A DNA stretch of 64,000 nucleotides. It comes from Oscillatoria sp. CS-180 (GTDB lineage: Bacteria; Cyanobacteriota; Cyanobacteriia; Phormidesmidales; Phormidesmidaceae). Where the stretch lies: contig NZ_JAQMUB010000030.1 in assembly GCF_028330965.1 (NCBI RefSeq), positions 1 through 64,000 of the forward strand. Direction: 5' to 3'. A program made the position numbers and the translations under genes. The notes under the pieces are model-generated. The model did no database searches and was not told the DNA's origin. It was given only the letters and a program-made list of their open reading frames with translations. Of this stretch, positions 30,476 through 33,490 are shown piece after piece. Each line of letters opens with the position of its first letter. Position 1 is the first letter of the stretch.

Positions 30476-32869
30476 ATGAATTTTTCGATCGCCTCACTAC
30501 TAGCCAATTTTACTGACGACAAAACGCTGACGTTGAAGGCTATTCAAAAGAAACTGCACTGTGATACTGACGATAACATTCGAGAGTTACAAATTGCTTT
30601 AGATGCCCTAGAGCGAATTAAGGTTCTTGAAAAGGAAAAAGGAAAGTATCGGCGCGTTAGCGAAGACGGTGTTGTCGAAGGGAAGCTTCGATGTTCAAGC
30701 AAGGGCTTCTGCTTTGCGATTCAAGATGATGAAGCTGCTGACGATATCTACATCCGTGAAAGCCAGCTCAACACCGCCTGGAATGGCGATCGCGTCCTAG
30801 TACGAGTCACCAAGGAGGGTAGCCGACGTCGTAGCCCAGAAGGAGAAGTGAAAGTTATTCTTGAACGGGCGAATGCTTCGGTGCTAGCCAGAATCAAGCA
30901 GGAAAATAAGGCCTATCAGGCTGTTCCTTTAGATGATCGCTTGCTCTTTGAGTTGAGCCTTGAAGGAGAAGAAAAAACGCTCGCAGAAGCGATCGACAAA
31001 CTAGCCCATGTCGAAGTGGTTCGGTATCCGCTGGCTCAGGATCCTCCCCATGGCCGTGTTGCCCAAGTTTTGGGAAGTGATGCCGAAGATTCTTCAGACA
31101 TCGACATCGTCTATTGCAAATACGATTTACCCAGAACCTTCTCAGATGACGTCATGGCGGCTGCCCAGTCGCTACCTAATCGAGTCCGCAAAGCAGACAC
31201 CAAAGGGCGTTTGGACTTGCGAGATCAGATCACCGTTACCATTCATGGCACACAAGCTAAGGTGATCGACGATGCTCTCACCGTAGAGCGCGATGAAGAC
31301 GATAACTGGAAGCTCGGTGTTCATATTGTTGACGTTGCCCACTACGTTCCAATCCATTCACAACTTGATCGAGAAGCCTTGAAACGCGGGACCGCAGTGT
31401 ATTTGGGGAACGAGATGATTCCCATGCTGCCCACCTCAATTTCAACTTCCCTCTGTTCTTTTGTTCAAGGTAAAGACCGTTTAGCCATCTCAGTCATTGC
31501 CACCCTTAATTCGGACGGAGAGGTCTTAGAGTTTGAGATCCAGCCTAGTGTCATTTCTGTCGACCATGCACTGGTGTATCAGCAAGCCCAGGGCATTCTG
31601 GTTCGTGATGATGAGGAAGAATTGGCAAAGCTAGGTTTGAAGGCAAAAGATCTCAAAAAGTTGGAACCTGCCTATGACCTAGTTGAGCGTCTGAATGAGC
31701 TGAGTCAAATTGTCCGTCAGCAGCGCATGAAGAGAGGCTCTTTTGAGCTTAATCTGCCGGAACATGAGTTTCCTGATGATGCGAAGGAACCTCTGGCCTC
31801 CTATGCCTCGCCTAAATTCCAGTACGACGATGAAGGGCTGTTAGGCGTCATTGTGGTGTCTTCTTCACTCACTGCCCGCATGATGGTGACGGAATTCATT
31901 TTGCTGGCAAATCAGCTAGTGGCCTCTCATCTTAAGGCCCTAGGCGTTCCTGCAATCTATCGCCTGCATCGGACGCCGACGACCTCTGACGTACAGGAGT
32001 TGATGAAGCTGGCAGAAAACATGGATATTAATCTGGAGCTGGCGGAAGAAGAGTCTATTTACCCAATGGACTATCAGCGGTTCACTAAACAGTTTGCGGA
32101 GTCGCCTTCTGAAAAGATTTTGACCTATCTGCTGCTATCTACTTTTAAGCCGGCCTTTTATGGAATTCATCCTGACCTTCATTTCGGTCTCGCGCTGACG
32201 GACGGATACACTCATTTCTCTGCGCCCACCCGACGCTATCCTGACCTTATGGTGCAGCGGATTCTCCATGCCGTTTTCAAAGACGGTCGAGATCGCCGCT
32301 CTACTCGCTCAAAAGACCGCGTCAATTTGCGCCACAGCAACTGCCACGGCAGTATTAACTGGAACGTGCTTCCACCCGATATTAATAACGAGCTGGAAGA
32401 CTATATCAAGCGCATTGTGGGTCCGTTGAGTGAACGAGAGCAGCTAGCTCAGGATGCTGAAACAGATTTAGAAGGTCTGAAGAAGGCAGAGTTCATGCGG
32501 GACCACACGGGTGCTGTGTTCCACGGTCTGATTACGGGCGTTCAGTCCTATGGTTTCTTTGTAGAAATTGAGGAGCTGTTGGTCGAAGGATTAGTTCACG
32601 TTAGCTCTCTGAAAGACGACTGGTACGAATATCGATCGCGTCAACAAAAGCTCGTCGGACGCAAGAATCGCCGTCAGTTTCGGTTGGGCGATCGCGTGGA
32701 AGTGCAAGTCAAAAGCGTGGATTACTACCGTCAGCAAATCGATTTAGTGGTGGTAGGCGGCGGTAGTGAAGCCAGTGAGGACGACATTACCGATGAGGAT
32801 TACTCCATAGATAATGGCGAAGACCTTCCCAACGGTGATGAGGAGCACGTTAGCGACGAATCTGAATAA
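30476..32869 (+). CDS. RNB-family (RNase II/R) protein with altered active site; Zam or RNase R homologue
   Basis: The layout is that of RNase II/R: an N-terminal winged helix, cold-shock regions (from about 65), the RNB domain (about 245-600), an S1 domain (GLITGVQSYGFFVEIEELLV, about 684-703) and a highly acidic tail. RNB enzymes degrade RNA 3' to 5'. The catalytic helix usually has four Asp in D-x5-D-x-D-D. Here it reads IHGTQAKVIDDAL (256-268): His257 and Val263 replace the first two, while Asp265 and Asp266 remain. The catalytic Arg region is kept as FSAPTRRYPDL. Activity may be reduced or lost; Synechocystis Zam is a possible relative. The stop abuts the ubiX start. Confidence 0.88.
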   Translation: MNFSIASLLANFTDDKTLTLKAIQKKLHCDTDDNIRELQIALDALERIKVLEKEKGKYRRVSEDGVVEGKLRCSSKGFCFAIQDDEAADDIYIRESQLNTAWNGDRVLVRVTKEGSRRRSPEGEVKVILERANASVLARIKQENKAYQAVPLDDRLLFELSLEGEEKTLAEAIDKLAHVEVVRYPLAQDPPHGRVAQVLGSDAEDSSDIDIVYCKYDLPRTFSDDVMAAAQSLPNRVRKADTKGRLDLRDQITVTIHGTQAKVIDDALTVERDEDDNWKLGVHIVDVAHYVPIHSQLDREALKRGTAVYLGNEMIPMLPTSISTSLCSFVQGKDRLAISVIATLNSDGEVLEFEIQPSVISVDHALVYQQAQGILVRDDEEELAKLGLKAKDLKKLEPAYDLVERLNELSQIVRQQRMKRGSFELNLPEHEFPDDAKEPLASYASPKFQYDDEGLLGVIVVSSSLTARMMVTEFILLANQLVASHLKALGVPAIYRLHRTPTTSDVQELMKLAENMDINLELAEEESIYPMDYQRFTKQFAESPSEKILTYLLLSTFKPAFYGIHPDLHFGLALTDGYTHFSAPTRRYPDLMVQRILHAVFKDGRDRRSTRSKDRVNLRHSNCHGSINWNVLPPDINNELEDYIKRIVGPLSEREQLAQDAETDLEGLKKAEFMRDHTGAVFHGLITGVQSYGFFVEIEELLVEGLVHVSSLKDDWYEYRSRQQKLVGRKNRRQFRLGDRVEVQVKSVDYYRQQIDLVVVGGGSEASEDDITDEDYSIDNGEDLPNGDEEHVSDESE

Positions 32870-33490
32870 ATGCAGGCTAACGAGCAACTATTACCTATCA
32901 CTTTAGGCATTACAGGAGCCTCAGGCTTGATTTACGCGGTCAGGGCGGTCAAATATCTCTTGGAAGCGGAGATTCCTATCGAGTTAGTGGCCTCCAAAGC
33001 AACCTATCAGGTTTGGAAAGCTGAGGAAGGGATTCAGATGCCCGCTGAAGTTAACGCTCAGGAAAACTTTTGGCGGCAGCAGGCAGGGGTCCCTGATGGT
33101 GGAAAGCTACGCTGCCACGCCTGGAGTAATGTAGGCGCGAATATTGCCAGTGGGTCATTCAAAACCCAGGGCATGATCATCATGCCGTGCAGTATGAGTA
33201 CGGTGGGCAAACTTGCAGCAGGTCTCAGCTCCGATTTGCTAGAACGAGCTGCCGACGTGCAGTTGAAAGAACGCAAACCGCTAGTCTTGGTTCCCCGAGA
33301 AACCCCTTTGAGCCTTATTCACCTGCGCAATCTAGTTACCCTTGCGGAAGCGGGGGCCCACATTGTGCCTGCGATTCCAGCTTGGTACCACAATCCTCAG
33401 ACCATCCTAGATCTGGTTGATTTTGTCGTGGCTAGAGCGCTAGATCAGTTCGACCTGGATTGTGTCCCTCTGAAACGCTGGCAAGGGTGA
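32870..33490 (+). CDS. ubiX: Flavin prenyltransferase UbiX
   Basis: UbiX joins dimethylallyl phosphate to FMN to make prenyl-FMN, the cofactor of UbiD decarboxylases in quinone or aromatic metabolism. The flavin-binding start LGITGASGLIYAVRAVKYLL is diagnostic. So are IIMPCSMSTVGKLAAGLSSD, LVLVPRETPLSLIHLRNL and AIPAWYHNPQT. The length of 206 residues is normal. The ATG follows the RNB stop with no gap (TAA then ATG), so the two are translationally coupled. No ubiD lies in the window; menD is 0.6 kb downstream. Confidence 0.95.
   Translation: MQANEQLLPITLGITGASGLIYAVRAVKYLLEAEIPIELVASKATYQVWKAEEGIQMPAEVNAQENFWRQQAGVPDGGKLRCHAWSNVGANIASGSFKTQGMIIMPCSMSTVGKLAAGLSSDLLERAADVQLKERKPLVLVPRETPLSLIHLRNLVTLAEAGAHIVPAIPAWYHNPQTILDLVDFVVARALDQFDLDCVPLKRWQG

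Follow-up and report, generated by a model that had tools for sequence, protein, structure and literature searches.

A cyanobacterial zam gene encoding an RNase R-type protein with a degenerate metal site and a probable pseudonuclease role

The zam locus

The window, by which we mean the whole 64,000-nucleotide stretch of Oscillatoria sp. CS-180 DNA that was analysed, carries on its forward strand a gene for an RNB-family protein that is followed directly by ubiX. The features of the two genes are as follows.

30476..32869, + strand: zam, RNB-family (RNase R-type) protein of 797 aa with an ATG start (open reading frame and homology)
30680..30853, + strand: first cold-shock domain, CSD1 (OB_RNB), residues 69-126 (Pfam)
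30692-30694, + strand: C73, in RCSSKGFCF, within CSD1
30710-30712, + strand: C79, in RCSSKGFCF, within CSD1
Residues 174-223, + strand: second cold-shock domain, CSD2 (Pfam)
31208..32278, + strand: RNB domain, residues 245-601 (Pfam, E 2.6e-92)
31244..31273, + strand: degenerate metal motif H257-GTQAK-V263-I-D265-D266 (alignments)
32231..32245, + strand: RRYPD segment with R586, equivalent to RNase II R500 (alignments)
32504..32746, + strand: S1 domain, residues 677-757 (Pfam)
32870..33490, + strand: ubiX, flavin prenyltransferase, with a zero-base gap after the zam stop codon

The Pfam domain order of the encoded protein, two CSDs followed by RNB and S1, is that of RNase R, and its NCBIfam RNase R score of 561 bits lies under the cut-off of 598 bits. 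The AlphaFold2 model has a mean pLDDT of 83, rising to about 90 or more around the metal motif, with high confidence across most of the length of the RNB domain, and the structures nearest to it are the RNase R enzymes of B. subtilis (8cdu) and E. coli (5xgu). Promoter and terminator scans around zam gave no clear excess over chance. The tight coupling to ubiX, which the earlier note had counted as a second oddity, is ordinary: among the 152 loci with enough sequence, 118 have a co-directional ubiX directly downstream of zam (median gap 77 nt), so that zam-ubiX is a conserved cyanobacterial gene order for which no special explanation is needed. The wider neighbours are also ordinary, with a PhoU-domain gene upstream and a menD-like thiamine-pyrophosphate enzyme and aminopeptidase P downstream.

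Identity of the protein as Zam

The hallmarks of Zam are a redox-active disulfide and, on deletion of the gene, acetazolamide and pigment phenotypes. The window gene is identified as zam because C73 and C79 fall at exactly the positions of the redox cysteines of PCC 7002 Zam and because the genome has a separate canonical Rnb; the comparison with Zam that had been suggested earlier ended, in other words, with the window protein itself being a Zam. The protein is about 46-85% identical to most full-length cyanobacterial Zam orthologues and groups with them in a quick tree, whose deep branches and rooting are unreliable because of long branches. A search for a second canonical RNB gene, also suggested earlier, found one other RNB protein in the genome, the Rnb encoded on contig 92, which has D-E-D-D in the motif TIDDESTREIDDAL; RNase E is encoded in the genome as well. 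The cyanobacterial Rnb, of which Synechocystis Sll1290 is an active, essential RNase II-like example (PMC3293843), belongs to the RNB family like Zam but keeps D-E-D-D. Some genomes (L192, L194, L200) have a third RNB protein besides Zam and Rnb, with an apparently intact D-x5-D-x-D-D.

Thomas et al. 2022 (PMC9145284) describe Zam active sites as degenerate family-wide and probably without nuclease activity, and the cysteines as redox-active and needed in vivo, with C73S/C79S phenocopying the zam deletion. The window Zam resembles PCC 7002 Zam and Synechocystis Sll1910 in domain order, in the positions of C73 and C79, in the degenerate metal motif and in having an Rnb alongside. Others have reported, for relatives, that zam is non-essential and that Zam binds RNase E. 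Because active-site loss had already been described for the whole Zam family (PMC9145284), the window gene is a normal member of a known family and its degeneracy is no new oddity. Zam occurs across oxygenic cyanobacteria.

The metal site

A MAFFT alignment places D201/D207/D209/D210 of E. coli RNase II, and D272/D278/D280/D281 of E. coli RNase R, opposite H257/V263/D265/D266 of the window Zam, and phmmer returns the same register, with the motif ungapped, against the RNase R sequences of 8cdu and 5xgu. Two of the four metal-binding acids of active RNase R and RNase II are replaced and D265 and D266 are kept, as the earlier note had read, and the alignments and the Pfam S1 match likewise bear out its statement that the RRYPD segment and the S1 domain are present. 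The RNB fold, which matches 8cdu and 5xgu, is retained together with the catalytic Arg and Tyr, R586 and Y309 (RNase II Y253), and with Y368 (RNase II Y313). In fold, domain order, RRYPD, Y309 and Y368 the protein is like the E. coli and B. subtilis RNase R, its best sequence and structure matches, but RNase R has four metal Asp and the E. coli enzyme is without equivalents of C73 and C79.

The earlier note had allowed that the acids might be supplied from shifted positions, yet the sequence alignments show none in the loop of the window Zam, where no acidic residue lies between 257 and 265. An altered, probably non-catalytic RNB site remains the best reading of its proposals; the changed metal use that it also proposed is unsupported. 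We also considered H257 as a metal ligand and rejected it as unsupported, the histidine being apparently limited to one genus and relatives having D, K, T, R or V.

Catalytic acids and constraint across the family

Two genome searches and one contig scan together yielded 160 distinct Zam proteins. The alignment of these also took in 19 cyanobacterial RNB proteins other than Zam, as well as RNase R and RNase II of E. coli. At the V263 position Asp occurs in 0/160 Zams; two rows have Glu there, both without acids at 265 and 266. No Zam has four catalytic acids (three in 62, two in 53, one in 36 and none in 9), and D/E fills each of the four positions in all 19 of the non-Zam proteins. The cysteines are found in nearly every Zam (C73 in 159/160, C79 in 158/160). 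The loss at the V263 position is common to all sampled Zams, very divergent ones included, which suggests an ancient origin. Only the genus of the window showed H257, the residue in nearby genera being D (for example TIDGPNAQVIDD), so that H257 appears, in this sample, to be a recent further loss in that genus. Whether the His and Val are conserved, as the earlier note had asked, thus has two answers, the V263 position being non-Asp in 160/160 Zams and the His limited to a genus, and what had looked like a pair of oddities peculiar to one protein is a family-wide loss and a genus-level one.

Two further cysteines, C29 (30560-30562) and C214 (31115-31117), are also well conserved, being present in 62/75 and 66/75 of the dereplicated Zams respectively, and are unmentioned in the available text of PMC9145284. 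The Zams of one small-genome family (L169-L173), at 27-34% identity, have lost nearly all metal-motif acids and kept C73 and C79.

Conservation, measured as mean top-residue frequency on 75 dereplicated Zams, is highest in S1 (0.86) and CSD1 (0.84) and lowest in RNB (0.56); in Rnb, the RNB domain is the most conserved (0.77). Loop columns 257-263 lie at the 0-15th percentile of conservation within the Zam RNB domain, and the catalytic loop varies greatly in length, being almost deleted in some Zams and up to about 34 residues longer in others. In one family of genomes (L166, L167, L168) this loop holds a long insert of about 24-34 aa that is poorly conserved, and at L166 a second, short stretch of Zam that spans S1 (query residues 645-769; G170:C6:1830286-1830678) lies ~3 kb from the full gene.

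Among Zams at least 60% identical to the window Zam, D265 is present in 49/52, D266 in 50/52, R586 in 49/52 and Y309 in 46/52; the V263 position is never acidic, and residue 257 has changed from D to H, K, T, R or V on several occasions whereas D265 and D266 stay. This conservation thus places the window Zam in a partly preserved subclade. Farther out in the family E-N is the usual reading and R586 has often been lost, and in many Zams the channel residues are gone; the window Zam keeps D265, D266 and R586, as its close relatives do, and so is less degenerate than many other members of the family, and its H257 is specific to its genus in this sample.

A proposed role for Zam

We think it probable that the window Zam is a redox-regulated pseudonuclease that acts on RNA and/or RNase E and in this way tunes RNA turnover. 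The protein keeps the RNase R fold, with its two cold-shock domains, RNB and S1, but no longer has the counterpart of RNase II D207, a loss common to all sampled Zams, and in this genus has lost the counterpart of D201 also; it is the loss of these acids that would make the window Zam most likely a pseudonuclease. CSD1 and S1 would provide the binding of Zam to RNA and/or RNase E, the C73-C79 redox pair would control this binding and so tune RNA turnover, and the hydrolytic 3'-5' role would be left to the separate Rnb of contig 92. The identity of Zam, its fold, residue losses and conservation pattern and the presence of Rnb and RNase E are direct observations; for the Zam of this organism we infer a lack of nuclease activity and a regulatory role. 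The conservation of D265, D266, R586 and Y309 in its subclade is more than a purely dead site would require. A counterpoint to the pseudonuclease view is that the negative nuclease assay of purified Zam by Thomas et al. (PMC9145284), given as data not shown for an aggregation-prone protein, is weak, and RNA binding by Zam was likewise not seen in that study.

Alternative explanations

The Zam of the Leptolyngbya-like clade could instead be a weak or altered exonuclease that relies on D265, D266, the D257 of most relatives, R586 and Y309, perhaps using a single metal. The residue counts at 60% identity and above favour such an enzyme, as does the activity on unstructured RNA reported for Anabaena Alr1240 (PMC10989914), but we regard it as unlikely in view of a V263 position that is never acidic in the same group, repeated replacement of D257 and a loop of variable length. 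Moreover, the Zam of a Nostocaceae relative, a member of the group of Alr1240, keeps even fewer acids, with T, V, E and N at the four positions (ITEVNSDTKVIENAL), so the Alr1240 report gives the clade of the window no particular favour.

Zhou et al. 2020 is reportedly the primary report on Alr1240. According to a 2022 review (PMC10989914), Alr1240 not only breaks down unstructured RNA but also binds RNase E and stimulates it, and Thomas et al. identify Alr1240 as Zam (PMC9145284); alr1240-alr1241-alr1242 is listed as one transcription unit in PCC 7120 (PMC10287535). In the Nostocaceae relative zam, ubiX and ORF260 (260 aa, no Pfam match) are co-directional and close together (L215 1667-5457) and the gene downstream of Rnb is convergent with it, so that gene order is consistent with Alr1240 being Zam and is no proof of it. 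Our literature search found no paper tying alr1245 to argB, and for D207N/D278N mutant data it gave no usable paper. The Alr1240 activity would be either an expression-host contaminant or a non-canonical activity of Zam, and if it is intrinsic, Zam is no pseudonuclease. A genuine nuclease activity of Zam at a non-canonical site, with the Leptolyngbya-like clade using its incomplete acids and the Alr1240 activity being intrinsic and no contaminant, seems to us quite unlikely.

The RNB core might also serve only as an RNA-binding channel, like that of pseudonucleases of the yeast Ssd1 type, and block or deliver specific RNAs without degradation or RNase E. The RNase R fold and the channel residues are retained in the window Zam, and there are inactive members of the RNase II family that function by binding RNA (PMC8934651, PMC8097288). 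Yeast Ssd1 and the fungal Dis3L2-derived pseudonucleases have, like Zam, lost catalytic acids and conserved their CSDs, but they are eukaryotic and of separate origin, with no redox cysteine pair described in the available text (PMC8097288). The idea is nevertheless very improbable for the window Zam, since across the Zam family RNB is conserved less than any other domain and channel residues are lost in many Zams, and since Thomas et al. saw no binding of RNA by Zam (PMC9145284) and a Zam-type protein is reported to bind RNase E (PMC9145284, PMC10989914). That the substitutions arose from faulty alignment or assembly, with the four acids supplied elsewhere, can practically be dismissed and is refuted at the sequence level: acids are shifted by one position in the loop of some other Zams (for example KADSSQANTDSLDD), but the window Zam aligns without a gap to two RNase R sequences of solved structure and has no acid between 257 and 265, and four more sequences from other genomes of the genus, 84-85% identical as proteins, also have H257, which is therefore neither chance nor a sequencing error.

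The subclade of the window is intermediate between an intact and a fully degraded site and so offers good test material for setting the pseudonuclease view of Thomas et al. (PMC9145284) against the activity reported for Alr1240 (PMC10989914). Zam may link RNA turnover to the photosynthetic redox state, so whether Zam cuts RNA matters for cyanobacterial physiology.
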